Positions 27,056 through 56,839 of a stretch of 64,000 nucleotides of DNA are shown in pieces. Source of the DNA: Scolanthus callimorphus (taxonomy: Eukaryota > Cnidaria > Anthozoa > Actiniaria > Edwardsiidae); NCBI GenBank assembly GCA_033964015.1, contig JAWWUD010000101.1, positions 186,001-250,000 on the forward strand. Reading direction: 5' to 3'. A program made the translations under genes and the position numbers. The notes under the pieces are model-generated. The model saw nothing but the letters and a program-made list of their open reading frames with translations, searched no databases and had not been told where the DNA came from. Numbering within the stretch: the first letter of the stretch is position 1; each line of letters opens with the position of its first letter.

Positions 27056-27456
27056 TAGACCAAGCAACCCTTTGTATCGTAGAGCTAGCATGTCAATATT
27101 CCAGATCTGCCCCCACTTTTGAGAAAATACATTTTCGAGAACCCTTTCCACACACGATTTATAGCCGATCAGGGAACATCTATGTTCGCGACCTCATAGT
27201 TTAAAAAATATTGAAGTGGAAGGAGGAAATAATTGCATTTTTATAGTTAGGATAAAAATGCCTTTTCATACATATAATATAAATGCTACTTGTTTTTTGA
27301 CCAGGATTCGGCTGGTCGGTTCTTACACGGACAGCCTCTTAAAAAGTGGACAGGGATTCTGAAGTTTAGCTCCACAGAAATACAAGCCGTGATATCACCA
27401 ATACACCCGGGGGGACTCCCCATAAGCATAGACGGGGGTGCTCGTCCTTTCCTTTA

Positions 27457-28353
27457 GACAGGTTTGGTCCGGTACAAATCCGCCTTAACCATAAAACACT
27501 GAAAGAAGCACAGATAATTATCTTTGCATGTATGACGACGAGGGCTATCCATTTAGAGTTGGTAACTGACAAAACAACAGACGCATTCCTTATGGCCTTT
27601 TGTAGATTCGCTTGTACTAGAGGCCATCCTAACGTTTGCTGGTCAGACCGTGGGACAAATTTCATTGGCACGCAAACATATCTGAAAGAACTGATGCAAG
27701 CAGAGAGCACTGAGAAGATTAAAGATACGCTAGCCGAGGAATTTAGTTGCGAATTTCACTGCGAATGGAATGTACCAAAAGCAAGCCATATGAACGGCAT
27801 GGTCGAGTCCCTTATCAAATCAGTACGTCAAGCCCTAGACACAAGTTGCAAACTACGAGCCTTCACGGAAGAGCAATGGCACACTTTGCTAGCGGAAATA
27901 ACGTATGCAGTTAACAGCCGCCCTTTGTATCCAAGTTCTGAAAGTGTTTGGGAATCCCCTGCAATCACCCCAAATGATGTTGTTATCGGAATTCACTCTG
28001 CACCCCCAGTACCAATTCCTGAAGACCGAGTTAACCCGAGACACTTAGCCCGAGCGACACAGCAGAGAGTGCAAGATTTCTGGAACGCCTGGATTAAGTA
28101 TTTCACACCAACCCTTCTCCCTAGGAACAAGTGGTATTGGCCGAGAGAAAATCTGCAACCAGGAGATTTAGTCTTAGAACTCGAGCCAACCCCAAGACGA
28201 AAGTGGAAAATGGCATTAGTGCAAGAGGTTTACCCAGGGACAGACGGACTAGTGATGAGGAAAGTCAAGATCAAGAACTCAAATGGAGAGTACGAGCGGC
28301 CAATACATAAACTTTGCTTGATTGCAACAAGAATCGAACTAGAAGCGGAATGA
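27457..28353 (+). pseudogene. BEL/Pao retrotransposon integrase fragment
   Basis: The frame is open from about 27457 to TGA 28353 and reads FGPVQIR...TTRAIHLELV, then CWSDRGTNFIGT (Asp), and ASHMNGMVESLIKSVR (candidate Glu), the catalytic core of a retroviral-type integrase. It continues into the C-terminal region common to BEL/Pao (NPRHLARATQQRVQDFWNAW...PGDLVLE...RKWKMALVQEVYPG). The zinc-binding N-terminus and everything upstream are absent. The sequence before it (27395-27455) is a dispersed G-rich repeat. No LTR was found nearby, so this is a truncated copy, distinct from the full element at 38.3-47.3 kb. Confidence 0.85.
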
Positions 28354-32539: not shown

Positions 32540-32746
32540 CTTGAGGTACTATGACAAGCATCACTTCATCTTTCTTTCCACTACACTCAAGGCTTGTGTG
32601 ACAAACATCAGGGGTACTCAGGGGTAAGACATTTATTTGGGCGCCAGAATCCAATTTTAATTTGATCTCTGTGCCTCCTATTTTTGCTGTTGTTACTTTT
32701 ATGTGTGGTGTGTATTGCACCTAGAAACAGATCTCCATCTTTTTCT
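32540..32746 (-). pseudogene. Ty3/gypsy protease remnant (left of the insertion)
   Basis: The minus strand encodes PHIKVTTAKIGGTEIKLKLD and then SGAQINVLPL, an aspartic protease active-site region (DSGA) of Ty3/gypsy type. The frame leads directly to the left edge of the 18-kb element at 32747. Its upstream partner, the gag zinc-knuckle region, lies on the other side of that element at 50797-51045. A one-base shift near 32712 and an apparent internal deletion after the active site show decay. Confidence 0.7.
32738..32746. repeat. Target-site duplication, left copy (TCTTTTTCT)
   Basis: Nine bases TCTTTTTCT directly precede the TAGCC terminus. The identical nine bases follow the other end at 50788-50796. 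Confidence 0.88.
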
Positions 32747-32895
32747 TAGCCTGCGAGCCGGCTCTCCAGTGGGTTTTTTCGGATGTATTTTTTTGGGGCG
32801 CGCGGGATTCCTGTGTCGTGTCGGGGGGAAAGGAGAAAGGAGAGCCGGCAGGAAAGGCCCATGTTTTGTCGTGCCCGCCCCCGTCACGGGTCAAC
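32747..32895 (+). repeat. Left TIR of the DUF6589/RecQ transposon
   Basis: The first 21 bp are identical to the inverted right end. After a poorly matching stretch, GAAAGGAGAGCCGGCAGGAA and AGGCCCATGTTTT match again. It lies about 150 bp upstream of the DUF6589 start codon, so it may also contain the promoter. Confidence 0.85.
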
Positions 32896-33041
32896 GACTC
32901 GCATCAAAACACTTTGACAATAGCTGTCAAACTTAGCCAATAACAGCGTAGGAACATGTAAACAGAACACAACAGCTAATCCACGTGTGTGATATTCGAA
33001 GTGTAAAGACTTTCGAAGATTTTTGTAGATCTTTGTAGTTT

Positions 33042-36000
33042 ATGGATTCACAAAAAACTCCTACAAAAACGATCCCCTTGAAAAAAGATTTAGTAGACGA
33101 CTTCTGCCGTATCTGTAAGAAGAGTTTCAAGGTAAAGTTTGGCGCGTCTGGAAGAGATCATTTGACTTCCACGGAAAATTTATTTAGACCGTCAAGGAGA
33201 GAGGGGAGCCGCGGAGAAGTTCTAGCGACTCAGTGCGAAAACATCGGACTGAAAGTATTGAAATCAAAAGAATTGTCAAGCCGGGTTTGCAATCCATGTG
33301 CTAGAAAAGTCAGAAATCTCCACAACTTATATCGGTTTATAAGTTCGTCACTCTCCGACGATTCGCAGGATTGCGGGAAGGAGAATTGCAGCCCGAAAGT
33401 TTCAACGCCAGTTAGGAGTAAACGTTTGCTACCGACCTCTGTTTGTACTCCGGATAGAAGTCCGGTACATCGCAAACAATTGCGATTTAGAAGTCCCACG
33501 AAATCGCCGAACCCTGCGGAGAAAGCTTATAAGTCCAAAAGCCGCAAAACTCTTTTTGAGCTAGTGCACGGCGAGGTTGTCGAAGAAGACATATTTGGAC
33601 ACCGTTTTAATGTGGAGGAACTTATAAACTCATCAAAAACAAGACTGAAAGTTGTCCTGGTCTTTCCGAACGGCGAATCCAGAGTTCGAACACCTAAAGA
33701 TCAAAGTACTTCGAATTTGATTCGGAATCTTGCGCTCAATAATTTCCAAGCAGTAGCAAACGAAATTTTCAGACACGAAGAAATCAAGGCAGAGTTGCCA
33801 AATGCGCTGAAGCGGGAGGTGAGGTGCGAGTTTAAAAACTTCAGCAGGTCAGAATCCGTGCTGAAAGGAACAGACCCAGATCAGTTATCTGGATTTTCCA
33901 ACAAACTGGTCTTGGAAGAAAGTAGTATTTATTGTCCTATGTGGCATGCTAGTATAGTTGGGGCATGCGGGAAGGAGAACACAAATTCGTGTGTTCTGGC
34001 AACAGCAGCAGTCGCGCGTGCAAGAAATGCCACCATGTCGGCTTTTCACTACCGCATTTCTGCAGTTCTTTCTCATGGAGGTGTTGGGTATGATGATATG
34101 ATACGGCTAAATCGTTTGGGAATTTGTATGTCGCCAGACAGCATGATTTGCCTGCAGAGAAAAATGGGAGAGAACTCCACTGCAAAAGTACAAGTCTGGA
34201 AACAGGAGATAGAGAGAAACAAGAGATCCATAATATTTCTGGAGGAGGTGCTTAGAGCCCAAGTACCGGCATTTGCTGAAGACGACATGGAAGTAGAAAA
34301 TGAAGTGAGCTTGAAAGTTGAAGATGTAAATAACTATGAAAGCTACACACCAGCAGTACTTTCACACACGTTAAATCAAGTGCCCACTATTTACAGGCTC
34401 ACAGACGATATTATACTTGATGTCATAAACCAGCTCAAAGGAAAAAGACTTCCATATTATAAGTAAGTATGAAAAAGATAATCCTTGATGGTGTGATAAA
34501 CGTTTTATAAGTATCAGACCAGATCCCTTTTGGCCTCAGACAGGCTTTGACAAATTTTATTTTGGACGAAAATGGGGTTGCAGACACTTTAAGTAGCACA
34601 CAACCCTTCGCTTCGACACACCCCTTTTGAAAAGGCCTTGTACATGGCACACAAATCCCTCCACAAACACACATTCATAAATAAAACAAACAATCTACAT
34701 CCAAATCTCTTAAGAGATAGTGGGATAGGAGTGAGGGGTTATTTTCTCTTTCTCTTTATGTTTTGCTTGTTTTGTCAGCTCTCTTATATTCCTCATTTGT
34801 GCTTGCTTCCCAGGCTAGGTGTGTTCCTTCCATTAGCCTATCTAGTTTAATGATATACTATTATCTATTTATATTTATTATGTTTCCAAAATATGTAAAT
34901 GTCTGTCTAAAAATAAAATCTGAATCTGATTTCTTCTTTCTTTAGACTTGTTGGAGATAATGTGGACCTAGAAGTTCATGCTAGGATACAGACAAAAGGC
35001 CATCGTAACCAATCACTACACTGGACACACCAGTTTGCAGAGAAAAGCAGAGTAGTGGAGCCTTTAGCTGAACCTAAATCACCACAAAAAAGAGTGAAGG
35101 ACATCCAGTTGATAGAGCTCCTCCCCAACCATGGTGTTATGGAATCCCTTAAAGCTACTTGGTCAATTCTGATCAGTCGGGTTGTGTGTAAATATTTGAC
35201 ACCATTCAAGTGCTTGAAAGATGTTGTGATCCACCACATTCCCCACAAGTATTCAGCCCAGATGTCCCAGAAGTCTACGTATGTAAGTTTTATCTCCTGC
35301 CTATAATGCAAATTGCCCCCAAGGGGAGGGGGTCTCCCAAGTATGAGTGATAGGGTCGGGACATCAAGCGGACATAAAAAATCCACCCCCTTAAAAAATA
35401 CCTTTAAAACAAAATGACCCTTAAAAAATACAAATACTGTATTTTTCTTTGCAAATTCCAGAGGGGTGACTTTTCAAACCCTTCTGTGGAGGGGGTATGG
35501 ATATTTTTTGGAACCACACATTATTTATTGTTTCTCATCTCAAAACAAGCTTGTTTTTAGAGCTATAAATGAATAAAGAAAGCCAGAAAATGTTTTGCTT
35601 GGTTTGTGACCCTTTCATTCATTTGCGTACCCCTAAAAAATAACACTTATTAGTGAAAGCCACACTCTTTCTCCGATGCCCCCTAAACAATATCTAAGAG
35701 TCGATTTTGACCCCTAAAAAAATATGACGAGCACCCCTATCAGGCCGACAGGTCAGGTCAAAATTGTTTAGATGAAACAGTAGAATCATAACCTTGTTAG
35801 GGGATTAATTTGGGATTTTAGAGAAACCCTGAAAACAGCATTTCAAATAAAATATAAATATTTTAGAAGAAAAATCTCATCCCCCCTTGAGAGTGAACTG
35901 TGTTTTTTTCTGCATAAGACTTTGATGATGTACCCTGAAGTGAAGTACATATATGATCCTTGGTTTCTCTTTTGTTATAGTGCTACCTGGACCTTTTTTT

Positions 36001-38273
36001 CCTGAACCCTAATGTTGCTGGGGATATGGCTAAAATTCTCAAGAAGAACCAAGAGAAATATGTTCCAGTATCATGTGATAACAAGACAGTCCTGTTCCCA
36101 GTTGCACAGCATGGAGATCAGTTGTATGAGGAAAGGGGTAGGAATGTCCAGTGGGCATTTGGAGATGGTGGAACCAAGTTGGACAAGCTGCAAGGGCTGA
36201 GGACAGAGTTTGCAGATTGGCATGCTAAGGTCACCCTCTACGAGGTATGGAAAAAAATAATTATATAATAATGAGTAACAGGGTAACTAAGTAGGTAAGC
36301 AGGGTGACACAATTGTGATGGGCATACTCCAGATAATGATTTAAGTAACACATAAATTTGACAGGTTTGTCAAACCACAGTCTGCAGGAGAAATTGGCAC
36401 TTCAAGAGCTAGCATGAACCGGACTGGCAAAACTAATGCTAGTAAGGGGGTTCATGCTAGCTACAATGAGTACAAGGATTTCCATACAAGGGAGATAGAA
36501 GCGCACATTTGTGCTGCTGTCATGCACATGTTGTCTATGAATACCGTTGATGGTGAGGTTTTTTTCCACGTGCTGCGCATCATTATCAACTTACAATTTA
36601 GCCCTTATAGATAAATTGCAATTATGGCTTCTAGCTGTACAAAGCTATAAAGTGGTTTGAATCAATTTATGTCAGTATAACTTAATTTTGACCCCCCCCC
36701 CCCCACCCCACCACCACCACTTTTTTTATTAATGTTGTATGTACATTAATGGTAAAACGCTACCAAGACCATTAATGTGATTACACACAATCCAAGGGAG
36801 GGTATTATGGACACTGCAGTTATCTCACTACTATGTTCTTACCTAGATGAACCAAATGAGATATTTCCAGGCGCAAGTGTACCGAAGCATGTTAGACAGA
36901 AGTGGCTGATGGAATTGTGTGGAAGGGTTGTTGACACGTATATCGGAGTAGATGATGTTGGTGACGTTACACATGACACACAAGGCCTGTTTGAGTCTTC
37001 AAATCAGAGATATGTTTGTAGAGCAGAGGGCTGTGACCAAAGCTATGTGTACCACTCTGGCAGAGTAAGGTAAGTTATTTCAAGTATATCCTATTTAATT
37101 TCATTGGCCGATCCAGGGATTCCCAAGAAACAGAAGCCCACTGGATCGGTCACTGATTAGAAGATGATATCTCTGTTTATTCATATCCAAACACTGAGTA
37201 TAACAGACATAATAGTGTAAACAATTATTAAGTCCTACATATATTTCTTGCAGCCATGAAATCGACAAACATGCTAGGAATTTCAACAATGTAGTTGGTG
37301 AGCGTGATGAGTATGGTTACTTTTATTGCCGAGCTGGCTGTGGCAGAGTGTATTCAACCAAGGCAACCAGAAATAGGCAAGTGTTAATTATAGTCAAATC
37401 CATATCAATTAGTTAGCCTACAACCACACTTCTCAGTCAGAAACCTGTGTCCTCATCCTTTCAACTCAAAAGGCCCACAATGCATTACTAACCCTAAAGA
37501 CTGATTTTCTAAAATCGTGGTATCATTACTTTTTTTCTAAGCCATGAACGCAAGCTCCATATTGTAAGTGTTGCAGCAGAGGCAGATGAAGTCACTGCTA
37601 CTACTGAAGACCAGACAGACACAAAGGAAGACTTTGTGTTTAATTATCATTCCTCAAAGATGGCCTTTGGGCTTCTTCTGTTTGAAATAAATGATGCAAT
37701 TAAGGAAGGGGACGGGGAACGCCTACACAATGCCTACAAGCTCTCATTGCTAATTTACAAAGAGGATGGCCACACCAAGTACTCTTATGCTGTATTGCTG
37801 TATTTGGTCCAGCTAAGTGCATTGTTACCAGAGGCTGAAGCTGTTGATCTGAAGTGGAACCGATTCCACAACAATGTTGGAGGAAGAGGGAAGAACATCC
37901 CTCTTGATCTAACCAAGGAGCATCAGAACAAGGTACTAAAACAAATGTGGAGGTCTCTGGGACCCAATTTGTCGGAGTCAAATGCCTCAAGAATGGCCAA
38001 TTGTCTAGATGCATTGGAAACGCTGATGTCATCCATAAATGAAGACTGCAAGCAGCAGACAAGAAGTAGTTACAGGGCGGGCAAGGATGCAGACTTAGCG
38101 ACTTGAAAGATAAGAATGTATTCACAAACACACCTGGCAGGGAAGGGTACAAATCATTTCCAGATATAAGTGGTAATCTGATAGACAACCTGGATTATAG
38201 AGATCTACACGTATGGATGACCGATCACATCAAGTTATGGGGATCTATTTATGAAGAGCGTGCAGGACAATGA
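33042..38273 (+). CDS. DUF6589-family zinc-finger protein, candidate transposase, seven exons (C-terminus frameshifted)
   Basis: Exons: 33042-34462, 34946-35282, 35981-36244, about 36381-36552, 36847-37069, 37254-37376 and 37542 onward. All join in frame to a 1034-aa protein stopping at TGA 38104-38106. In order: an N-terminal CRICKKSF...CNPCARK Cys pair (ZAD-like), a basic linker, a helical region, then the DUF6589 core with LVGDNVDLEVHARI (Asp about 478) and HWTHQFA, HHIPHKYSAQM, FGDGGTKLDKLQG (Asp about 648) and a Glu/His-rich helix (YNEYKDFHTREIEAHICAAV). Two C2H2-like fingers follow (CRAEGCDQSY...SHEIDKH; CRAGCGRVY...SHERKLH), then a helical C-terminus. The intron after 37376 has a GC donor (AG/GCAAGT). 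The exon-4 acceptor is the least certain. After ADLAT the +1 frame continues coherently (SDLKDKNVFTNTPGREGYKS...) to TGA 38271-38273, so one base may be missing near 38100. That this is the transposase is inference from its position and zinc fingers. Confidence 0.75.
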
Positions 38274-38333
38274 TCAGGAGCATGACAAAAGCACTAGAGT
38301 AGCATGTGCACACTAGAATAACATGTACCTATT

Positions 38334-38622
38334 TGTTTCGTCCTACGAAAACAATTTCTGACGTTTTTAATAAACGCACGTTATATGACGTAATAGACGC
38401 TAATTAGAGAGACAAACTATCATCTTCGCTAGTCGCGGATCCGTTCCACAGACACCAATGGGTAAGCTGTAACTTTTGTTTTATTCTGTTCTATTTCTTC
38501 ACTCCCCTAACGAATTGTAATCTATTCACAGCTTTCGAATAACACTTCTACCTGTATGAAACGTGGCAATAAACCATGCAGTGTAAAACATTTGAAACCT
38601 TGGTGATGCGGCTAGCGTAACA
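38334..38622 (+). repeat. 5' LTR
   Basis: 289 bp from TGTTTCGTCCTACG to GCGGCTAGCGTAACA. By eye it is identical to the 3' LTR. It contains TAATAAA-like and CAATAAA sequences that could serve as polyadenylation signals, and a splice-like CAATGGGTAAGCTG. Confidence 0.95.
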
Positions 38623-38693
38623 TTCGAAAGCCAGTTGAAAGTCAAGTCGAAAACCGAGTCACATCGGGGACGTCAACAGACGGCATTATCAAA

Positions 38694-40215
38694 ATGGCAG
38701 AAGCAGCCAAGTTAGCGCGACGCGCAGCTAAAGGGAAGTTCACGAGGAAAAGGACTGATTTCCAAAATTCTGTTCGGGACAGAAACAGCATTAAAACTAT
38801 AAAGAAAAACTACGATCAACTGGAAGATGTGATGAAAGACCTAGAAGGTAAACATGAGCATTATACATCGTTTTTAAACGACGAAGAATTTGATGTAGCT
38901 GAAAATTGGATGAGTGAGCTGCAAGCATTATACACAGATGCAACGAATCTGAAAAACGAGTACATCAATAATTTACAATTTGATGAATCTAGAGCGCGCG
39001 CTGCGCGAGAACACGAAGAAATCGTGAAAAGAGAAAAGGAGCAAAATGAAAAATTGAAAGAACACATTCTAATCAAGAGAGCCGGTGCGCGCACTGTATT
39101 TGATGCTATATTAAGCAATGCGTCACACATTATAGAAAGTGAGAATGCTGCAGCTTCTCTCATGAAGAAAGTCCTCGCACAGCTCGAAGAGGCCTTTATT
39201 GAATGCAAGCAAAAAATGAGCAGTATCTTGAGTTAGTAGGCAAGGAAATGATGCAAGAGGAATTGCAATGGATATCAAATCTTCAGATCCAATACAGTCA
39301 GATATTTGAAATATTTGAAACTCGAATCAGTGAAAACGAGGAGAGTAAGCTCAACGAAGCAGCCCTGTACAATAATGGTCCTGAGGCAATCGTTAAAAAT
39401 GTACACTTAGAGAAAATCAAAAGACCGCAGTTTGAGGGAGATATAAGAGAATACCCGCAATTTAAACGAGATTTCCAGACTCAAGTTATGCCAGGTTTGA
39501 CTAAGCTAACAGCCCCGTATACATTACGTACTTGTCTTGCTAAGGATGCTTTAGCAAAGATAAAATCCGTTGACGATGATATCGAAGAAATGTGGAGTCG
39601 TCACGGATGTGATTATCAATGATATCAAACAATTTAAAGTCATCCGAAAGGGAGAGAACACGAAATTTGTGGAATTCGTAGATAAGATAGAAGATAGCTA
39701 TCGTGATCTGAAAAGACTCGGTATTGAAAAGGAAATCACAACCACGAGTTCAGTTAGTACTATTGAAAGCAAACTCCCTTCTGACGTTAGAAAGGAATGG
39801 GCTAGGCTTGTTAGCTCACGTTCTAGCATTGTTGACAAAACTGACAAATTTCCAAGTCTACTAGAGTTCCTATTAGAAGAAAAACGAGCCATAGAATATG
39901 ACACATCTGACCTCAGATCAGCAGACACACCATGCGTAAGAGGCGCAACTCATTTATCAGATGGGAAACCTTCGCCAACGACAAAACATTGTCTTGTGCA
40001 CGGTAACGCGAAGCACTCCACTCACGAGTGTAAAAACTATCTGGCTAAGCCTGTGCAACAAAGAAAGAATGTTGTAAAGGATAAGGTTGCATGCTTTTCG
40101 TGCCTAAAACTAGGCCATCGTTGGGCTCAATGTAGAAATAAGAAAGAATGTAGCATTGAAGGTTGTAAAGAATTCCATCACCGAAGTCTTCACGAAGATA
40201 AAACAAACGTCCCAA
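38694..40215 (+). pseudogene. BEL/Pao gag region with zinc knuckles (frames broken)
   Basis: It starts at ATG 38694 (MAEAAKLARRAAKGKFTRKR). A long charged coiled-coil region (DLEGKHEHYTSFLNDEEFD...) leads to the capsid-like segment IKRPQFEGDIREYPQFKRDF, common to BEL/Pao Gag. Cys/His clusters follow (CLVHGNAKHSTHEC; CFSCLKLGHRWAQC; CSIEGCKEFHH), for RNA binding. The frame shifts near 39215, where an A run seems one base short, and again near 39600, where part of the sequence after IEEMW is missing. Gag packages the element's RNA; as read this copy could not make the full protein. Confidence 0.85.
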
Positions 40216-40249
40216 TCGAGGAAGATCAAGAAGATCAAATTTCTGGCAC

Positions 40250-41310
40250 CACAAATACATGTTCGAGAATCGGTAGTAATAAGGCCTGTCTCTTACAAAT
40301 ACAACGCATAAGAACTCGCACAAATTGGCTCAATGTTATGTGGGATAATGCATCTTCCCTTAGCTTCATTACAAACAAGGCAGCCAAAGCACAAAAATTG
40401 CACGGTACCACAGTTCAGCTGTCACTGCTAAAAGTTGGAGCAGAGAAAGAAGAGATCACAACAAAACGATACATGTTACCACTCATTGACCTACAAGGAC
40501 ATCAAACTTTAATTGAAGTATACGGAATAGAACAAATCACCTCTGACATCAGCAAAATCAAAATTGACGCGATACTTCATATATTTGACATCCCAAGGAA
40601 GGATATAGAACGACCAATCGGAACCATCGACGTGTTGATAGGATATGATTATGCAGGATTGCACCCAGAAAAGCAAAAACGATCGGGACACCTCCTGTTG
40701 TTAAAGAATCGCTTTGGGTTCTGTATCGGTGGAACACACCCGGCAATTGAAGAAAACACAGAATGTTTCAAATACAACGTCGCACATGTGAATCATGTGA
40801 AAGGAATCGAATTGAGCGATTTTTATGAGATAGAAAATCTGGGCGTGGAGTGTACACCGCGTTGCGGCGGCTGCAAATGTGGAAAATGTCCACCAGGCAG
40901 TAAGAATTATACACTTAAGGAAGAAAAGGAATCGAATCTCATCGAGAATAATCTTGAATATAACCCACAAGAACGTGTATGGATAACAACGTACCCATGG
41001 ATCAAAGACCCTTATAATCTCCCAGACAACAAAAGAGCAGCATATGGAAGATTGATATCGACAGAACAACGTTTACGCAAAAACCCAGATCACGCGAAAG
41101 TGTACCAACAACAAATACAAGACATGATTGACAGAGAGGTAGCGCGTAAACTAACCAGTGAAGAAATAAAGAAGTACAATGGGCCTGTGCACTACATCTC
41201 ACATCACGAGGTCTTGAAATCTGATTCCAAATCAACCCCAGTCCGTATTGTCTTCAATAGTAGTGCTAACTACATGGGCCATATTCTAAACGAATATTGG
41301 GCAAAAGGAC
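40250..41310 (+). pseudogene. BEL/Pao protease and start of reverse transcriptase, truncated by insertion
   Basis: After the zinc knuckles the same frame carries a DUF1758-like aspartic protease region: NVMWDNASSLSFITNKAA (Asn where the catalytic Asp-Ser/Thr-Gly pattern is degenerate) and IGTIDVLIGYDYAGLHPE. A Cys-rich CTPRCGGCKCGKCPPG segment follows, then the RT fingers region (PVHYISHHEVLK...TPVRIVFNSSANY). The RT is cut at 41310 by the foldback element. The remaining ORF to 41447 is insertion sequence, not RT. Confidence 0.82.
41304..41310. repeat. Target-site duplication of the foldback element (AAAGGAC)
   Basis: Seven bases AAAGGAC precede the element; the same seven follow at 43593-43599. 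Removing the element and one copy rejoins the RT frame (WAKGP then DLLNNL). Confidence 0.88.
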
Positions 41311-43592
41311 CACGGGCGGTAGGACCCGCTAGAGTATTTTTAAATGTACTGCTTTCCCGAATTTGGTCAATAAGTTCGTTATCAGCCGTGTCGAGAGGTC
41401 TTATAAAAGTTTTTTTTCGAAATCTCCTTAAAACCTGTTCTTTTTGAAGCCCGAAACTGGTCAATCTTAACGTTTATCTACTTATTTCTTTGTTAATAAA
41501 GCTTCTTTTAGCTTACCTTGGGCTTTTGAGGCATTATTCCTGATAAATAGACGGAGAGCCAACGTTCCTGTCATTATACCTCGTGTTACCCGAGACGCGA
41601 CTGGAGCCAACGTTCCTGTTATTATACCTCGTGTTACCCGAGACGCGACTGGAGTCTAACCTAGCCGTTAATGACTAAGCGATCAGCGCATGTCAAACTT
41701 GACAGCCCGAATTTCCCCACGCAATAAGAAATAGACAGGGTAGGCAACCAAGCCGGCTTCCTTTGTCCTCTCGTCAGCTCGATTTTCGACCCTCACTTGA
41801 CAAGTTGCTAGTGACAGTGTTGATGGATTGGCCTGCTCTAGAATAGCAAGTGTCTGGAGTGTATCACTTAACGGTCACCTTATGTACACAGAGTAACATG
41901 TAGGCCATTTAACCTAGATCGCTTAATCTCCAAATCTGTCACGCGCCGTCCTCCAAAGGTCAACCACGGTCCTTCATTCTCAACAAGGATTTACAAATAC
42001 CGGTGGCGGTTAACAAGCAATTTTTAAAAGTTTGAAACGTATATACATATTGACGATGATGTGAACATACAACTGAACGGTCATATTATATTTCGGAATG
42101 TTTTATTTACAACCTTCTAACCAAGACTTCACCTCTAGGTCTGGGCCACGGATACGTGTGTCTCGTATCTATTGTGAATTCGGCTAATCTTCCGTTCTGT
42201 TATAATAATTTACATCTAACATTTTCAAAAAGAAGGATACACCCTTTCATTTTTATAGCGCATAAGCTTCCTTGTTAGTCCCGTCGGGAACACTTCTCGT
42301 AAGTTTATACCAAACTTACTCTCGTTCCACGATAAAACTCCATACTCTTGGCATTTGGACTTGAAAAGTGTAAACGCAGATGAGCATTTCATGACGGATG
42401 ACGGAGACACACGGAACAGCTCACGAATTATATCCTCCCTGGGGCTATAAAGAGATTTAAAGAATAATGAAGCGTTAGCTGTTTGACATGGGCCGTTAAA
42501 AAGAGATCGATCAAAAATGTATTAAAATGTATAAAAAACTCACCGTGGCCCAGACCTAGAGGTGAAGTCTTCGTTAGAAGGTTGTAAATAAAACATCCCG
42601 AAATATAATATGACCGTTCAGTTGTACGTTCACATCATCGTCAATATACGTTTCAAACTTTTAAAAATTGCTTGTTAACCGCCACCGGTATTTGTAAATC
42701 CTTGTTAAGAATGAAGGACCGTGGTTGACCTTTGGAGGACGGCGCGTGACAGATTTGGAGATTAAGCGATTTGGGTTAAATGGCCTACATGTTACTCTGT
42801 GTACATAAGGTGACCGTTAAGTGATACACTCCAGACACTTGCTATTCTAGAGCAGGCCAATCCATCAACACTGTCACTAGCAACTTGTCAAGTGAGGGTC
42901 GAAAATCGAGCTGACGAGAGGACAAAGGAAGCCGGCTTGGTTGCCTACCCTGTCTATTTCTTATTGCGTGGGGAAATTCGGGCTGTCAAGTTTGACATGC
43001 GCTGATCGCTTAGTCATTAACGGCTAGGTTAGACTCCAGTCGCGTCTCGGGTAACACGAGGTATCATACCTGCCAACCCTGAAAACTCCAAAACCGGGAG
43101 ATTTTGTCTCAACCCGGGAGATTTTGTCACAAATACAACAACTGTATGAGAAAATCGCAAGAAATTTACCCGGAGATATACAGTAAATATATGGAAAGTT
43201 TCAATTTTTTCCCCGGGAGACTGAGGGTTAAAACCGGGAGTCTCCCGCGTAAACCGGGAGAGTTGGCAGGTATGAGGTATAATAACAGGAACGTTGGCTC
43301 CAGTCGCGTCTCGGGTAACACGAGGTATAATGACAGGAACGTTGGCTCTCCGTCTATTTATCAGGAATAATGCCTCAAAAGCCCAAGGTAAGCTAAAAGA
43401 AGCTTTATTAACAAAGAAATAAGTAGATAAACGTTAAGATTGAGCAGTTTCGGGCTTCAAAAAGAACAGGTTTTAAGGAGATTTCGAAAAAAACTTTTAT
43501 AAGACCTCTCGACACGGCTGATAACGAACTTATTGACCAAATTCGGGAAAGCAGTACATTTAAAAATACTCTAGCGGGTCCTACCGCCCGTG
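41311..43592. mobile_element. 2.3-kb foldback transposon with ~0.85-kb arms and a 7-bp duplication
   Basis: It begins CACGGGCGGTAGGACCCGC and ends with the exact complement. The arms (41311-~42150 and ~42543-43592) are nearly perfect inverted copies; the right one is longer because it contains a 208-bp MITE. The middle (42150-42540) has no coding content. Within the arm a ~48-bp segment (CCAACGTTCCTGT...ACCCGAGACGCGACTGGAG) is repeated in tandem. Termini CA...TG and a 7-bp duplication recall P-type elements, which make 7-8 bp duplications, but Dada elements (6-7 bp) are also possible. It encodes no transposase, so it moves only with help. Confidence 0.9.
43066..43273. mobile_element. 208-bp MITE nested in the foldback's right arm
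   Basis: ATACCTGCCAACCCT at the left and AGAGTTGGCAGGTAT at the right are inverted ends. GAGGTATC (43058-43065) and GAGGTATA (43274-43281) flank it, an 8-bp duplication with one mismatch. The left foldback arm shows the empty site. The interior repeats AACCGGGAGATTTTGTC and its complement. An 8-bp duplication would fit hAT-type mobilisation. Confidence 0.85.
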
Positions 43593-43599
43593 AAAGGAC

Positions 43600-45125
43600 C
43601 AGACCTCTTAAATAACCTATTAGGAATACTCGTCAGATTTCGTGAGAATCGCGTTGCGTTCATTGGAGATGTCAGCAAAATGTATCATACTGTGAAAACT
43701 AAGATCGTTGAGCAGCATACTCATCGTTTCCTATGGCGAGACATGAACACAGCAATAGAACCTGATATCTATGTGATACAAAGAGTTTCTTTTGGAGACA
43801 GACCGTCCGGAACTATAGCAACCGTTGCTATGAGAAATACAGCACAAATGGGTATTGAATCTCATCCCCAAGCAGCTCAGATCATCAAAGAAAACTCCTA
43901 TATGGACGACATAATCGACAGCGTCGACAACGTTAAGTTAGCCAAAGATCTAACAGAAGCTATTGAAGAACTTTTAACCATGGGAGGATTTCATATAAAG
44001 GAATGGATAATGTCAAAGGATAATACTCAAGAAAACCTGACGCTCACCTTGAGAGGTGATTCAAACGAACCCACGGAAAAGGTTCTTGGAGTAGTTTGGA
44101 ATCCACATACGGACCAGTTGTGTTTTTGTGTTAAATTCGATTTACAGATGAAGAGTAAAAGGAAAAGACATCTACCACAAGCACTTGATACAACGAGCTC
44201 ACATGACACCAAACTCACCAAGAGAATTGTCTTATCTCAAGTAAACCGTATCTATGATCCGATCGGACTCGCCACACCATTTACAGTCCGAGCTAAAATG
44301 TTGATGAGAAAATTATGGATGAGCGAGACAAAACCTGATTGGGATGACCCTATTCCGGATATGCTCACGAAAGAATGGATGAATTTCTTTGAAGACCTTC
44401 CAAATATGGGAAGCGAAGTCTTTGAAAGATGTATTAAACCCGTGAATGCAAGAGGGGATCCAGTCATAATAATATTTAGTGACGGTTCAGAATGCGCTTA
44501 CGGTGCATGCGCTTACTCCAGATGGAACATCACAGACAACAGCTACGAGAGCAGATTGATCATATCGAAAAATCGACTTTCTCCTGTGAAAAAGATGTCT
44601 ATTGATCGAGTCGAATTATGTGGCGCAGTTCTTAATAAACGACTCAAGACGTTTATCGAGAAAGAAATGAGGTACAAGTTTGCTAAATTCTACCATATTG
44701 TTGATTCCCAGATAGTGTACGGAATGGTTCAAAAAGAATCCTATGGCTTTAATACTTTCGCTGCCACACGTATTGGTGAGATACAACAAGGAACCAACAA
44801 GGACGATTGGTATTGGGTAGAGAGTAAGAACAACATCGCGGATTGGATTACTCGCGGAAAGAAACCAGCAGATATTGGACTAAGCAGCATCTGGCAAACC
44901 GGTCCTGAGTTCCTCAAACTACCTGAAAGTAAGTGGCCGATATACAAACCAAATTACCAAAACGAACTGCCTGAACAATTGAAAACAGTAATGTTAACTG
45001 AAGCCAAATCTCAAGATAGCTTAGAAGCAAGGATTGACATAAACAGATATTCTAACTACACAAAGCTAATCAGAATAACTGCAAGAATATTATCCATGTA
45101 CAAACGAAAACCTCGACCTACTTAA
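43600..45125 (+). pseudogene. BEL/Pao reverse transcriptase (rest), linker and RNase H
   Basis: The frame resumes with DLLNNLLGILVRFRENRVAF and IGDVSKMYHTVK (motif A), FGDRPSGTIATVAM (motif B) and the catalytic ENSYMDDIIDSV (YMDD). A Pao-type region follows (KVLGVVWNPHTDQLCF...RIVLSQVNRIYDPIGLATP). RNase H comes next (IFSDGSECAYGACAY, DRVELCGAVLNKRLK, YHIVDSQIVYGMV). The frame ends at TAA 45123-45125; the expected sequence continues one frame over, consistent with one missing base in ACTTAAAAAA. Together these domains make cDNA from the element RNA and remove the template. Confidence 0.88.
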
Positions 45126-46855
45126 AAAACGCAACATATCCACTAACACCAGAAGATATAGACAGAGCTGAAAGGTTTTGGATACTTCGATGCCAAAAAA
45201 TGTTGACATCAGATATGGAAAAAGGAAGATTCAAAAGACTATGTCCACGAACTCGAGAGGATGGCATCATAGTTGTAGGCGGCAGAGCTGACAAGTGGCT
45301 CGAGATAAGTTATAATAAGAATGACTTAGTTTTGCTGCCATACGAGCATCGCTTTGCAAGGTTATATGCTGAACATATACATCAAAGAGGGCATCACGGA
45401 ATATCATCCACAGTAAGCAAGATAAGAGGGCGATTTTAGATTACCAATATCCAGCGCATGGTGCGATCCATCAAATTGAACTGCATAACCTGGAAGAAAA
45501 TAGATAAACGACTTTGCGAGCAAACGATGGGGAAATTACCAGAGGAAAGATTAAAACCATCTCCACCTTGGCGCTACACGGGTATAGACCTCTTTGGACC
45601 GTTCAAGATCAGAGATGAAGTGAAACGAAGAACCTTTGGAAAGTGTTATGGAGTGATATTCAACTTTATTATATAGACACGAGTGTTTTACTGGGAAATA
45701 CGCCACTCGTAGATCTCATACGAAGCTACATCCGGGTCCTCAGTGACATATTTTCCATATCCTCACTAGTGAGGATATTGGTCAAAACAAAAGTGCTTGG
45801 AAATCAATTTGGAATATTTTTTCTGGTTTGTCTATATAATAAAAAGAAAATTACACGGTGGCTTGAAGATATGAGTTTTATTTTCTCGTGTCAAAAACAA
45901 TATTTTACTCATTCGCTGCGCTCATTCGTAAAATATTGTTCTTGCCACTCGAAAATAAAACTCATATCTTCGCGCCACCGTGTAATATCCTCTATGTATG
46001 TGTTCTCGAGCAGTTCACTTAGACCTAGCACCAGATTACAGCACAGAAACATTTCTATTAGTACTCAGAAGATTTGTATCATTGAGAGGATATCCAGCAA
46101 AATTATACTCTGACAATGGACCCCAACTTGTAGCCGCAGATAAAGAAATCAAGGATATAACACAGAGCTGGAATTGGGACGAATTACATGAATTTGGAGT
46201 AACGGAGGGCCTACAATGGGAGTTCTCGCCTGCCGACGCCCCTTGGTACAATGGTACGTCCGAAGCATTAATACGTTCTGTTAAACGGGCCCTAAATATC
46301 GCAATCGGTGAAAACATCATGACCTTCACTGAATTACAGACAGTCTGTTTTGAAGTTGCCAACTTGATAAATGAAAGGCCAATTGGTAAACACCCAACTA
46401 ATACCGATGATGGCGTATACTTAAGTCCGAACGACCTATTACTTGGAAGATCTACTTCACGCGTTCCAAGTGGACCCTTCAGAGAAACTACCAATCCTCG
46501 TCATAGATTCGAATTTGTCCAGAATATAGTGAAGAGCTTTTGGAAGAAATGGACGCGCGATTATTTTCCGAGTCTTCTTATTCAGTCAAAATGGCATACA
46601 GCGCACCGTGACGTTAAAGTTGGTGACGTCGTTATGATCCAAGATTCTAATCTTGTCCGAGGAAATTGGAAACTTGGCAAAGTTATTACAGCCAACCCAA
46701 GTAAGGATGGAAGAGTGCGCAGAGTTGAAATCAGTTATAAGAATGCTAAACCAGGAGAACCTGTAAAGACATATCGCGGAGGAGGATATGTTACAGTAGA
46801 ACGCCCAGTTCAGAGGATAATCGTCATCGTTCCTGTAGACGAAATGAAGGATTGA
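45126..46855 (+). pseudogene. BEL/Pao integrase, with a stop codon and an inserted hairpin element
   Basis: From the shifted frame, TPEDIDRAERFWILRCQKM leads to the zinc-binding N-terminus (HIHQRGHHGIS...). A TAG at 45437-45439 (GRF-stop-ITNIQRMV) sits where a Trp is usual. The core begins RYTGIDLFGPFKI and is interrupted at about 45665-45990 by a hairpin element. It resumes with CSRAVHLDLAPDYST, SDNGPQLVAADKE (Asp) and APWYNGTSEALIRSVKR (Glu). The BEL/Pao C-terminal domain (NPRHRFEFVQNIVKSFWKKW...VGDVVMIQD) ends at TGA 46853-46855. The enzyme would insert cDNA into the genome; this copy is defective. Confidence 0.85.
45665..45990. mobile_element. ~320-bp insertion ending in a 136-bp hairpin
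   Basis: This piece separates two parts of the integrase core. Its right part (45850-45986) is a near-perfect palindrome: ATTACACGGTGGC...GATATGAGTTTTATTTTC, then ATATTTTACTCATTCGCTGC at the turn, and back to GCGCCACCGTGTAAT. Its left part (GGGAAATACGCCACTCGTAG...CACTAGTGAGGATATT) has no coding content. The left boundary is approximate and no duplication could be fixed. Confidence 0.7.
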
Positions 46856-46984
46856 AATGAACTTACTCGAATAACTATACTATACTTATGAACATGCTAA
46901 CTAACCTATTTGAAACTTTGTACTAACCTGTTTGAAACTTAATTAACTGTTAAAACTTGCATAACTTTCTAGATGAGGGGGGAG

Positions 46985-47273
46985 TGTTTCGTCCTACGAA
47001 AACAATTTCTGACGTTTTTAATAAACGCACGTTATATGACGTAATAGACGCTAATTAGAGAGACAAACTATCATCTTCGCTAGTCGCGGATCCGTTCCAC
47101 AGACACCAATGGGTAAGCTGTAACTTTTGTTTTATTCTGTTCTATTTCTTCACTCCCCTAACGAATTGTAATCTATTCACAGCTTTCGAATAACACTTCT
47201 ACCTGTATGAAACGTGGCAATAAACCATGCAGTGTAAAACATTTGAAACCTTGGTGATGCGGCTAGCGTAACA
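46985..47273 (+). repeat. 3' LTR
   Basis: 289 bp, apparently identical to 38334-38622, preceded by the polypurine tract GAGGGGGGAG and followed by CTATT. Confidence 0.95.
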
Positions 47274-47278
47274 CTATT

Positions 47279-48350
47279 GTAAGAAACTGAATTGGGAGGT
47301 TGTTACTCAGCCTTTGTTAAACCCAATGTTTTTAGGCTAGATAGTTCAGGGGCACTTATTTAAAGCTTGTGATAACTTATCACATGCAGTGACCCATGGA
47401 AATGTAACATTACTGCATGTTATACATTAACGCAAGCTTAAAAAAAAAGTCCCAGGAGTCTTTTGTTTAATAGACCACTGTATATTTAACGAACACAACT
47501 ACAGTGTACTACATGTAGAATATTTTGTATCAAGTTCTAGTTTATGTTACACCAACAATAAATCACAATGGCTCTGCAGGATGCCATGCTGGCTCCCCAG
47601 GCAGATTTTGGAGTGCTAATTATCTAATGGTCACCGTAATTCATATGCACTACAACAGTGACACAGTTGATATGCAATTCTACAGTATAGCTTTGATCAT
47701 TATGGTATCACTTCTGGTCTAACTTCTTCAGTCATTTCAATTAGAAAAATGCTACTGTTAAATCGCAGTGAGACATCCATCCATTGAACTGCGACCATTG
47801 GGATCAAATGGGCAGTCGCAAAAAAAAAAATCTGCACCCCCAGTTGAGAACCCTGTATTCGTTACCTTACCTACCCACCCTGGAATTCCAACAAGTTTCT
47901 TTGTGACCTCAACCTAGATTTTCTCTCCAGCTAGAGAGCACCCACCCTGGATTTTCAAAGGTCCTCGAAAGGTGGGTGCATATTTCTTTTTTTGCCACTG
48001 CACAAAGTGGTCATTTTGAGTGTGCTCATATCATAGGTTTCTGATTAGTGGTTTCTGCTTTATAGTGCACGTGTCATTTGTATTTGAAAATAACAGTTGA
48101 TTAAAATGAGCGATAATTAATTAGCGATAATTAATTAGCATGGAATTGTGTTCATAACTGATGTTGACCATTGAAAAAGTGAAGATACTGCAGTACTAAA
48201 AGAAAAATGGACATTGTTGAACTGTTAAAATACAGTGTAAATGCTTGTCCTGTCTCAACTAGATTTGTGGAATGAAACAGCATTTTGAAACTTCATTTTT
48301 CTTGTAGTACACAGTATCTTCATTTTGATCATCTCTTCACCTTAGTTTGT
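47279..48350. other. Non-coding part of the 18-kb element between BEL/Pao and the helicase gene
   Basis: No gene is supported. The stretch contains the 3' flank of the RecQ-like gene (minus strand) and AT-rich sequence. It resumes the same element interrupted at 38333. Confidence 0.5.
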
Positions 48351-48354
48351 GTTT

Positions 48355-50565
48355 TCATTCAACATCACTTGCATCACTTGCATCAAAGTACCCTTCAAAT
48401 AATTCTGTTGGTACTGTTGAGCCATACAAAAAATTGAGTAAGCCAACAGTTTCCTCAAAGTGGGGGATATCTTCAAACAGTTCATTGAATATCTCAAGGA
48501 TCTTCACAGCATGATTAAAACTGAACACAGGAAATCTGGAAGTCAAATCATCCAACGTAAAAATTGTACTACTGTTTTGAACAATATCATCAATAAGTTC
48601 TGGAGTGAACCCACAATTTGCCTCAATTCCAAAAAGTCCCTTCCTAGCACCTAGTTGTAGTTCCTTTAATGCTTCTGCTAGGTCTTTTCTGTCATTTTTA
48701 CTGACTGGTCTTGACAGGCTATGGGTTTCAGAAACAGTATCCTCTGCAGGTAATTGGAATGGCGCTGGTGGTTCCAAACAGAGCTGACCATTGGCACACT
48801 TGCATGTCTCTCTGCAGTTTGAACAGCAGTCGTGAGAAGGAACTAAGGGCTTGATGGTAGGGTCCAACGATTTGTAGCTGGCGATACTTAAGCACCCTGT
48901 TGCCTTGACAAATTCCTTTACCTCATCCTCACAGTGTGTCAACTGATTGCCATGGTATACAACCACCACATCCGATTTCTTGCCATCTCTGCCAGCCCTA
49001 CCAGCCTCTTGATGGTGGTCAAGAATAGACCGTGCTGGGCCCAGGTTAACAATGTATCTGACATCAGGGAAATTAATTCCCATGCTCAGAGCTGTTGTGG
49101 CAATAATTATCCTTTTCTTGTTGTTGCCCTTGAAGTCGTTAATTATCTCCTCTTTATAACTGTCCCATGATGATGAATGAAAGATTCCAACCAAAGAATT
49201 TTCTCTGGTTCGTGACGTTTGAGGGCTGTAGGCAGCACCACCAAGTTTCATCATCAGTTGATTGACTGTTCTAGCAACATCATTCAAGGTATTGCAAAAT
49301 ATAATGCACTTAGGCATCTCTGTGCCAAGTTCTTTTGCCATTTTAACAATCCAGTCCAGTTTAGTAAATATATGTGCTTTCTTTGTTTTGTAAACATTGA
49401 TCCTTAAATTTGTCCTGTTTTGACTGATGAATACTTTGAGATATCCTTCGCTCATCCCCAGGCTAGTTGTTATCACCTTGACTGTTTCTGTGTCTGCAGT
49501 CCCAGTGAGGGCTAACCAAGGGATTCCTGCCAGACAGAAGGAAGATTAGTTAGATACCTCAGTTTGCCCAAATATTTTTTAGTTCTTGTGTAATTATTAA
49601 GCTTCAACGAGACTTTTATATTAAAAAGTGCACAATAATATCTGCTTCATTAGAGGTTTCTTCATTTTATTTAAGCTTCAAAATTACTGATTTTTGGTAC
49701 TTTCATATGTTGCCAAAACTGAACTAAACTTTAAGTGCAAAATTACCTTCGCATAATGATCTTAAAACTGCCAATTCTCCATAGGCTCCTCGAAACTCTT
49801 TGTGGACTTTCCCTTTCGATTTCCTGTAAAATATAATATTATATTATTGTTAGTCTAACGTCCTCAGTCTTTAAGAGGAAAGAATCGAGGACAAACAAGA
49901 GAGTTGCGGAAAATTCACAGATTAACAAACTGTTATTAGGACTTAGGAGGGATTTCTTAGGAGTAGTAAACTTCTTACAATGTCTCACTGCACAACAAAA
50001 TCCATCGATTGTCGTACTCGGCAAAATAAACGAACAAGAATCAGAAGCTTTGGCCTTCGCAGTAACCAACAGTTAACAAAAAAGAAGCATACCTTTTGCC
50101 GGTCCACGTTTCCACTGTGTGGGATTCATCCACGACGATGGCGCTCAAATGGAATTGCGAATCTCTTCGCTTGAGTGTTCGTCGAAACTCGGGACTTTGA
50201 GTGTCTTCGGCTGACGCGAAGATCACTTGTTCGTTAATAACGGCCGTTGTTTCCAGATCTAAATCACTTAGACAAGCAGCGCTTATTCCTAAGCTTTCTG
50301 CTTCTCTTTTCTGGTCGGCAACTAGACTTACAAGAGGGCTAATAACAAGAATTTTAGCCTCGCCGCTCAAAAGCTGCTTCGCCGTTACAAAGACTTGAAA
50401 AATCATGCTTTTGCCAAAACCAGTAGGTAAAATAGCTAACACATCTCTGCCTTCGAGAAGGGCATCGATAGCTTGTTTCTGTTCGTCTTTCAAAACAAAT
50501 CCAGGAGCTTTTAAAAGCGAGAGGGCCTTCTGAACAGCTTCGTTGTTACTAAGAAGAGCCGCCAT
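48355..50565 (-). CDS. RecQ-like DNA helicase, three exons, 573 aa, intact
   Basis: Exon 1 is 50565-50093 (MAALLSNNEAVQKALSLLKA), exon 2 is 49823-49747 and exon 3 is 49526-48355; all joins are GT-AG and in phase, with no stops. Visible helicase motifs: LPTGFGKS (Walker A, residues 46-53), VISPLVSLVADQ (Ia), VVDESHTVETW (motif II as DESH rather than DEAH), LALTGTAD (III), IIFCNTLND (IV), TTALSMGINFPDVRYIVN (V) and QEAGRAGRDG (VI). A Cys cluster (CCSNCRETCKCANGQLC) occupies the RecQ zinc-binding position, and a helical tail follows. It unwinds DNA 3'-5' in the RecQ family. Its start codon lies about 220 bp inside the right TIR of the 18-kb transposon, so it is part of that element and may help process transposition intermediates (inference). 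Its paralogue is at 54.2-56.5 kb. Confidence 0.92.
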
Positions 50566-50639
50566 ATTTCTTCTACTTCTAGTTCTGAGCTTGTCGTGTG
50601 TTGAATGTCACACATTTTTGACGAGTTGTCAAAACCGGC

Positions 50640-50787
50640 CAATCAAATGACCCCGTTCGCTGGCGAACGGGAAGCATGAAAAAACATGGGCCTTTCCTGC
50701 CGGCTCTCCTTTCACTCGCCACAGGAACCCCGCGCGCACCCTTACGAATTCTCTGGAAAACACTCTGGAGAGCCGGCTCGCAGGCTA
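50640..50787 (-). repeat. Right TIR of the DUF6589/RecQ transposon
   Basis: Complement of the left end: GGAGAGCCGGCTCGCAGGCTA closes the element at 50787. Farther in, AAAACATGGGCCTTTCCTGC and CGGCTCTCCTTTC match the left arm. It lies directly upstream of the helicase start codon. Confidence 0.85.
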
Positions 50788-50796
50788 TCTTTTTCT
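50788..50796. repeat. Target-site duplication, right copy (TCTTTTTCT)
   Basis: Identical to 32738-32746, directly outside the GGCTA terminus. Confidence 0.88.
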
Positions 50797-54239: not shown

Positions 54240-56525
54240 TTCAATTCTTGCTGCACACTCACTCCTCCATGCCTTCATCGCAGTCCTCAAATATGTCGCA
54301 GAAGACTTCCAATATTATTAGGGCATGTCTGGTAGAAAACACTGGTGTCAATGACAAAATGTCAGAAATAGTAAATATTTCTTTACTGTGGCTCAAAACA
54401 TCCTCAATAAGTTCCTCTGAAAATCCATGTGGATGGATGTAGATGTGTCACCAAACACTGGCATCGGAGAAATTTCCACAGTCAATGTGCCCTTTAACTC
54501 CCTGAGGGCAGCCTCTAAAAGTCCATATTGCTCCTTTGTGACTTCCCGACATGCTGGAACTGTTGGTTCTTGCTCTTGTGGTGGTGATGCCCTTGTTTGT
54601 TTACATTCATCGCATTCGCAAGATACCTCACACAATGTACAACAGTTGTGGCCTGGTTGCAGTGGAGTGATGTTCGGATCTAAGGAAATGTTTGCATCAA
54701 CCCTAAGGCAACCTTCTGATTTAAGAAAGCTGCTAACATCGTCCTCACAGTGTGTTACTTGCTGGCCATAAAAATATGTTGTGCAAATTGATTGAAGGCC
54801 ATCTCTCCCAGCACGCCCAGCTTCCTGGTGGAAATCCAGTATGCAGCGTGCCGGGCCAAACATACCCACATTCCTGATGTCCGGAAAGTTCACGCCCATG
54901 CTGAGGGCAGATGTGGCGACTTGCCCCCTATCTTGAGAGACCTTGAAATCCTCTCCTTGTTCGTTTTCAAAGTCAAGGAATGAAAAATTCCTATAAGACA
55001 GTCATCCCACGAAGTTGACGAGGATGGTACAAAAGCAGAACTTCCCAGCATCATCATCAGCCATTTGACAACTGAGGAAATAGCATTTAAAGTGCTACAG
55101 AAAAGAATTGTCTTAGGCATCTTTGCCCCTCTTTTCCTGGCAGAGTACACAATCCACTGCAATTGACCCAGCAGATCTGGCTTTTTTATCTTTTTCACTT
55201 CAAATTTAATGTTTATTCTATTTGGACTTACAAAGAGTTCCAAAAGAAGGTGCATGACAAGCTCTTTCACAATTGTCCGTTGGGTTTCCTTGTCTGCTGT
55301 CCCAGTAAGGGCCATAAATGGAGTTCCTGCAAAATTGTGTAAATACTAGGTAAACAATGCTTTCGAGTCAAGAATATCCGAAACATCACTTGTATTTTCT
55401 GGTAAGCCATTAAACAAGGAGCGAAGGTGTATGCTATATTAAGAAGTAATTGGTCTCGGTTCACCCATTTTACACAGGAAAAAATTCCTAAAAAGCATTT
55501 TGTATTGTATTGTAACCATTAAGTTTAAAATGGTGTTAGTTCTACAAAACCATTCAGTTTTGAATGTTTTTATATACAATATGTTCTCCTTTGCACATTG
55601 ATCTCAAAACCGATAATTTCCGGTATGCCTCTCTAAACGCATGCTGGTCAGCCTTGGTCTGGAACTTTCTGTAGAGATAAAAAGTAAGCTTAATACTCGT
55701 TCTTACAAACAAACAAGAGCGACATGAAAAAAAACGTTGGCAACTTCATGATAAAACGGACTACTCTCTAGAGCCAGCGGTTCGGATCCCTTTAGATGGG
55801 TTCCTTTAGATAAAATCAACCTGACTTTAAACTCGAATTAAAGAAAAGTAAAGCGAAAAAGCGACCTATAGTAGAATAAGCTGCGAAAGAGAAGCGCGCT
55901 TTGACCAAACAAGAAAGATCAAACAACAACCTACAACCAATACAAGAAGCTTCGAACGGTGCAAATGGAAGCAAATGTGACTTTTCTCACTTGAACTTTG
56001 TATGTCAGAGAGAAGCTCATCGTATCTGTTTTCCTTTTTCCTGACCAAGTCTCGACAGTGTGTGACTCGTCCACGACTACAGCAGATATTCGTAGATGAT
56101 GAGCCGAATCTTTATCCTTCAAGGCCTCGAAAAGCGCTTCTCTAATAGTTGTTCTGCCGTGGCATAAATAAACTGCGGCGGATCACGGAATACTTTGTCG
56201 GCGGTACTTGGAGTCAGTTCCATAGCTGTACACTCGATGTCTTGCATCGCCGCTATCTTGTCTTCAATGATGCTTTTAAGCGGAGCAACAACAAGTACGG
56301 AAACTTGTCCGCCATTTATAGCCTCCTGCTCGAACCTCTTTGCCAAAGCGAAGACGGTGAAGATTAAACTCTTGCCAAAGCCAGTTGGTAATACCGCAAT
56401 AAAAACATCCTTTCCTCTCAGAAGACCCCTTACTGCTTCCTCTTGTTTTTTTTTTTAAGAGAATTCTTTTGATTTCGACTTTAAATATGCGAGAGAACGT
56501 TCTATAAGTTTTGTAGCATTCGCCA
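54240..56525 (-). pseudogene. Second RecQ-like helicase gene, decayed
   Basis: The same three-exon plan as the copy at 48-50 kb. Exon 1 begins near 56525 (MANATKLIERSLAYLKS) with VLPTGFGKSLIFTVFA and VVVDESHTVETWSGK. Exon 2 is near 55670-55590 (KFQTKADQHAFREAYRKLSV). Exon 3 starts near 55325 (TPFMALTGTADKETQ) and carries ILFCSTLN, ALSMGVNFPDIRN, QEAGRAGRDG and CCTLCEVSCECDEC. Breaks: an A run near 56450, one base missing near 56120, a degenerate first donor, a frame change near 54925 and another near 54430. It is roughly half identical to the intact copy, so it comes from an older or different subfamily, not a recent duplication. Confidence 0.85.
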
Positions 56526-56649
56526 TGTTTTGGTAGGATAATGCGAGAAAGGATTGTGTGACTCGTTTTTCTACTCATTTGAATGACAACTCAATTTTCG
56601 ACCAATCATATTTCCCGTCTATTCGTGGACGAGAAATTCAAATCACCTA

Positions 56650-56833
56650 CCAATAAAAGCCTAGTTTCCCGGCAGGCGTTCTTTCCGTTGGCCCCCGGCG
56701 CGTTCCTACTTCCGGCTGGCCTTTTTTTAAAACTCGTGCCAGGTCGACCGCGCGTACAGAAATCCAAGTTGGCGCCTCGAACAACAAATTCCAGGTATTT
56801 TCGCCGTTAAAACACTGACAAACGCCGGCTAGC
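56650..56833 (-). repeat. Right TIR of a second DUF6589/RecQ-type element
   Basis: Ends in GCCGGCTAGCAGGCTA, matching the terminus of the 18-kb element (TAGCCTGCGAGCCGGC inverted) with one difference. Inward it contains CGGCAGGCGTTCTTTCCGTT and a GC-rich stretch. Its position about 130-300 bp upstream of the RecQ-like pseudogene mirrors the intact element. No left end or DUF6589 gene for this copy was found in the window. Confidence 0.7.
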
Positions 56834-56839
56834 AGGCTA

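Follow-up and report, generated by a model that had tools for sequence, protein, structure and literature searches.

The window, by which we mean the whole stretch of 64,000 nucleotides that was analysed, holds between positions 32747 and 50787 a DNA transposon of about 9.1 kb that pairs a DUF6589 gene with a gene for a RecQ-like helicase and that contains a nested retrotransposon. Matched to AcademH by its published description, this element is very probably of the AcademH type. Since both genes and both ends are found in it, it can be regarded as a nearly complete animal AcademH candidate.

Boundaries of the element and the nested retrotransposon

The element is bounded by inverted ends of 31 nt with 94% identity (TAGCCTGCGAGCCGG), which lie at 32747..32777 on the forward strand and at 50757..50787 on the reverse strand. 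Inside them a further inverted pair of 40 nt and 95% identity occupies the subterminal positions 32835..32874 (forward) and 50674..50713 (reverse). The 18,041 bp enclosed in this way are flanked by a perfect 9-bp target-site duplication, TCTTTTTCT, with its left copy at 32738..32746 and its right copy at 50788..50796. The terminal 15-mer is exact at both ends of the element. When up to three mismatches were allowed it had three matches in the window, against 0.39 expected, and in the genome searched (597 Mb in 302 contigs) the exact 15-mer was found 522 times, tandem copies included, with no match for the pattern read backwards. The initial annotation had described inverted termini, a 9-bp duplication and two inward-facing spliced genes that start 220-300 bp from the ends, and all these features were confirmed in the window sequence: the start of the DUF6589 gene is 295 bp from the left end (33042, forward strand) and that of the helicase gene 222 bp from the right end (50565, reverse strand).

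The same annotation had presented the element as a large transposon of 18 kb. It is indeed a real DNA transposon, but about half of this length belongs to a nested BEL/Pao LTR retrotransposon, foreign to it, at 38334..47273 on the forward strand, which was recognised from its LTRs, domains and duplication and from the spacing in sibling copies. The two LTRs (38334-38622 and 46985-47273) are 289 bp long and 100% identical, the 5-bp duplication CTATT is found at 38329-38333 and 47274-47278, and the BEL/Pao-type domains Peptidase_A17, DUF1758 and DUF5641 are located between these limits. The presence of BEL/Pao elements suggests that the genome is that of an animal. Subtracting the retrotransposon and one CTATT leaves, by arithmetic, an element of 9,096 bp. 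In the siblings on contigs C5, C7 and C4 the matched exons of one gene are separated from those of the other by 1,370-1,388 bp, versus 10,288 bp in the window, and this difference of about 8.9 kb fits the BEL/Pao insertion. Judged by spacing, the retrotransposon is absent from these three siblings. A native 18-kb element was therefore rejected, given the nested BEL/Pao copy and the short gene spacing of the siblings. The retrotransposon arrived later than the transposon, in the interval that separates the genes, and left both of them unbroken.

Inside the BEL/Pao element we also observed a near-perfect inverted repeat at 41311-43592, with arms of 425, 225, 106 and 105 nt that are 97-100% identical. 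It sits between the BEL/Pao coding parts, overlapping them slightly, and is either a true insertion or an assembly artefact.

The two genes and their pairing across the genome

The final model of the DUF6589 gene comprises seven exons on the forward strand and encodes 1,062 aa, with a stop at 38106 and no internal stop. Exon 1 (33042..34462) encodes an N-terminus weakly similar to zf-AD, under the Pfam cut-off in the draft model where this match was seen. Exon 2 (34946..35282) carries GDNVD, whose Asp 478 is the candidate first catalytic residue, and exon 3 (35981..36244) carries HGDQ and FGDGG, the latter containing Asp 648 and the former Asp 632 as a further candidate. Asp 478 and Asp 648 are the residues to which the initial annotation had pointed. 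There follow exon 4 (36381..36557), exon 5 (36768..37069), exon 6 (37254..37376), after which the intron is of the GC-AG type, and exon 7 (37542..38106), with the C-terminal part of DUF6589 (E 2.2e-22). The joints between exons 3 and 4 and between exons 4 and 5 are the most plausible in-frame GT-AG choices among several. The initial annotation had reported this gene as open for 1034 codons. Its openness was confirmed, but the length had to be revised to 1,062 aa, and the 3' part is probably frameshifted: because a sister copy on contig C1 continues past the stop of the window gene, using residues that the window has in another frame, the window gene probably loses its last residues through a frameshift near its end.

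Pfam recognises DUF6589 from residue 475 onwards (E 7.2e-28 in the final model, 1.8e-29 in an earlier full draft). Two C2H2-like knuckles are present in exons 5-7, with one Pfam match at E 0.041, under the cut-off; a match to a toxin family (E 0.054) is likewise below the cut-off and at chance level. No match to the DUF6589 protein came from an NCBIfam scan, and a search of the PDB with the DUF6589 part gave nothing useful, the best being a zinc-finger match with E 0.11. Exon 1 alone, folded from the single sequence, produced a meaningless model (pLDDT 31.7). The HGDQ and FGDGG stretches are both kept in a distant relative (locus L070), which retains GDQL-EER-RN, then DG and DWHA. No relatives of the DUF6589 part were found in the viral, prokaryote and phage contigs searched, and the matches to DUF6589 in 14 control genomes were zero. 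The family is labelled 'unknown function' in Pfam and we found no mention of it in the literature searched. The protein is most likely a DDD/E transposase, as we infer, and DUF6589 would in this way gain a concrete function that can be tested.

The helicase gene lies on the reverse strand and its final model encodes 573 aa in three exons. The frame is open to its stop, in agreement with the earlier view that this gene is intact. Exon 1 (50093..50565) contains PTGFGKS and DESH, exon 2 (49747..49823) is short, and exon 3 (48355..49526) covers Helicase_C and a cysteine cluster and ends at the stop codon; QEAGRAGRDG completes the helicase motifs identified. The Pfam matches are DEAD (E 1.3e-16) and Helicase_C (E 1.1e-16), and solved structures of RecQ helicases match the protein, the best being 4tmu (E 2.9e-32). 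A search of viral contigs found no relatives of this helicase.

To DUF6589 the genome has at least 103 matches over the cut-off, merged to 102 loci, and to the helicase at least 108, merged to 101 loci, both lists being lower bounds. A facing (tail-to-tail) helicase was found within 12 kb at 57 of the 102 DUF6589 loci listed, and a helicase only in another orientation within this distance at none of the 102. In a control with 500 random shifts the mean was 0.084 pairs, with at most 2. The median gap between the matched exons in the DUF6589-helicase pairs is 2,150 bp. Facing pairs thus recur across the genome, and therefore the two genes belong together; it was their co-occurrence that the initial annotation had proposed to check. 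Without a listed partner within 12 kb there remain 45 of the 102 DUF6589 loci and 44 of the 101 helicase loci. These may be pairs that have decayed or diverged, elements with a single gene, or host genes, the last in particular for some of the helicase loci.

The siblings on C5, C7 and C4 encode helicases 99, 99 and 96% identical to that of the window, respectively, and each of these helicases is adjoined by the 222-bp right end of the window element at full length (93-100%). C5 holds an additional full-length copy of this right end, about 5 kb farther along the contig. The sister copy on C1 is more distant (helicase 61-78%, DUF6589 56-79%) and shows the same gene layout as the window; 285 bp away from its helicase match lies a related end. 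The window itself contains a second relative, decayed and left-truncated, at 54283..56839 on the reverse strand, which consists of a helicase remnant and its own end. The remnant (56445-54283) is frameshifted, with 43% identity in its two longest pieces and 36-72% in the others; the end, TAGCCTGCTAGCCGG, is located at 56839-56825, and the helicase match starts 394 bp inside it. No further DUF6589 match was found beside this remnant in the window.

Target-site duplications, short derivatives and tandem ends

Starting from 100 listed matches to the 15-mer, 68 loci (L001-L068) were examined for ends, several of which overlap or copy one repeat. We considered 27 distinct insertion sites, the window element included, that were chosen for a recognised duplication; insertions recurring within larger repeats (AATAAACAC, AGTATTTGCC, TGAAACCTC, ATGCTTCAA) or in overlapping loci each contributed a single site. 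Left out for want of a recognised duplication were L004/L029, L006/L030, L008, L026, L037, L038, L040, L043, L045 and L048. Also left out were L049, L051, L052, L053, L061, L063, L066 and L067, the first anchors of L024 and L033, the second end pair in L023, L064 (8 bp with 2 mismatches) and, as decayed copies of the AATAAACAC/GTGTTTATT repeat, L010, L027 (8 bp, perfect) and L068.

Among these duplication-selected sites the duplication measures 9 bp at 25 of the 27 (22 perfect, 3 imperfect) and 10 bp at the other 2 (one perfect, one imperfect). In a control across sites, none of the 702 pairs agrees at 9 or 10 bp when as many as 2 mismatches are tolerated. A first control across loci gave 2,608 perfect 9-mers of 196,534, a value that is inflated because many copies of one repeat carry the same derivative; for this reason one representative was used per site.

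The window element is the sole gene-bearing copy among the 27 sites. The other paired copies, 26 in number, are 75-555 bp long and gene-less, and neither protein was detected in the 68 loci (tblastn, E up to 0.01, with the window as positive control). Copies of the ends without either gene nearby had been named beforehand as an observation that would count against the proposed system. Formally, these 26 copies are of that kind; a family like this one is, however, expected to give rise to short gene-less derivatives. Several other ends have no recognised partner.

An end pair 3,278 bp apart at L021 was considered as one element and rejected: it is without an outer duplication and corresponds to two short derivatives, each with its own 9-bp duplication. 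The right end of L004/L029 is about 80% identical to the window right end over 137 bp; it lacks a recognised duplication partner, and nothing coding was matched within 10 kb of it. Many ends in the genome resemble this type (77-82% over about 110-190 bp), and they perhaps constitute another derivative family.

For tandem repeats in short transposons the literature offers the example of Tetris (PMC4079207). Here, one end is multiplied in tandem, 3-15 times, at six loci of short derivatives. There are 15 ends about 71 bp apart in L008 (1374-2454), 7 about 83 bp apart in L028 (79-616), 3 about 71 bp apart in L039, 3 at 83 bp in L044, 3 recognised ends separated by 83 and 158 in L046, and 4 about 83 bp apart in L058. 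A perfect 9-bp duplication lies outside the whole array at five of the six, L008 having none. At all six loci every inner unit breaks off at the terminus, GGCTA or nearly so, and the unit that follows starts at a fixed subterminal point; for the 71-bp class this is CACAGGAA and for the 83-bp class CTTCCCCC, small variants apart. It could be imagined that Academ elements with a helicase move not by simple cut-and-paste but in a helicase-assisted, partly replicative way, in which a newly cut terminus is repeatedly joined to an internal point of an end, at 71 or 83 bp. Tandem arrays of complete ends would thereby grow within short derivatives, be mobile as a whole with the usual 9-bp duplications, and give rise to satellite-like repeats. 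We consider this quite unlikely; unequal recombination, followed by normal transposition, is the simpler account of the tandem ends.

Relationship to AcademH and proposed mechanism

The initial annotation knew of no described superfamily combining these features. This claim fails because AcademH, reportedly described by Kojima in 2020, was already characterised by a helicase and by 9- or 10-bp duplications, as measured here, and a categorically new superfamily was rejected since the AcademH description fits. The likeness, established by description only, is that of a DNA transposon with a helicase and 9- or 10-bp duplications in animals. Terminal inverted repeats are present, a RecQ-like helicase lies beside the putative transposase, and the 9-10-bp duplication occurs at 27 of the 27 duplication-selected sites, the window copy being the only one of them that carries genes. 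The 9- or 10-bp duplications of AcademH and the 3- or 4-bp duplications of AcademX have been linked to the encoded helicase and nuclease, respectively (PMC10045372). AcademX is the sister lineage of AcademH within Academ, but its short duplications and its nuclease (PMC10045372) differ from the window family, where 9-10 bp were found at all 27 sites. AcademH is reported as low-copy in three fungal phyla (PMC10799480), and putative non-autonomous MULE and Academ elements as widespread in a fungus (PMC8290104). Academ is also mentioned in PMC10294476, PMC4455052 and PMC12210899.

One could still suppose that an unrelated DUF6589 transposase formed a partnership of its own with a RecQ helicase and shares the 9-10-bp duplication with AcademH by chance, so that a new superfamily would be at hand. 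DUF6589 is indeed unnamed in the literature searched, and helicases joined transposons more than once, as illustrated by KolobokH, which carries a RecQ helicase together with a DDD/E transposase (PMC9587614). However, what has been published on AcademH is matched both by the helicase and by the length of the duplications, the rare cases of 10 bp among them, and we judge a new superfamily to be unlikely. KolobokH itself differs from the window family: Kolobok duplicates the 4 bp TTAA, which was not encountered at the 27 sites, and KolobokH is given as found only in fungi (PMC9587614).

The other explanations have still less in their favour. MuDR/MULE elements make 9-bp duplications, and by duplication length alone the window element might be one of them that gained a helicase. 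Pfam, however, gives DUF6589 and weak zinc fingers and no MULE domain, and the C/DxxH motif common to MuDR, hAT, P, Kolobok and Dada (PMC9587614, PMC10045372) is not evident by eye, the window having FADWH and the distant relative EDWH; such an origin is therefore highly improbable. Two unrelated short derivatives might also flank host-like genes, with a coincidental duplication, given that the 9-mer TCTTTTTCT is T-rich and that such ends are common. This last reading is largely refuted by the genome-wide pairing (57 of the 102 listed loci) and by the sibling helicases that adjoin the same right end, and chance of this kind seems to us exceedingly improbable.

If the element is of the AcademH type, as we favour, the DUF6589 protein would bind the GAGCCGGCTC-containing ends, cut at TAGCC...GGCTA and join them to positions on the two target strands that lie 9 bp, or occasionally 10 bp, from each other. 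For the RecQ-like helicase, the likeliest role would be to open the DNA at the ends or at the target, or to clear repair intermediates, and the great length of the duplication may be connected with this action. In this way, copies that carry the genes could mobilise the many short gene-less derivatives. With 57 or more facing DUF6589-helicase pairs, a genome of this kind is suited to testing the role of the helicase and the reason for the 9-10-bp duplication.

Other mobile debris was observed in the window. It includes a reverse transcriptase (11023-12687), a DDE_3 transposase with a weak Sleeping Beauty-like HTH (15193-16233), a 690-aa ORF with no Pfam match (17943-20012), an integrase core (22571-23439) and a DUF5641 domain (27370-28350). 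A GIY-YIG nuclease domain at 58201-58707 on the reverse strand (E 1.2e-7) probably derives from a retroelement.
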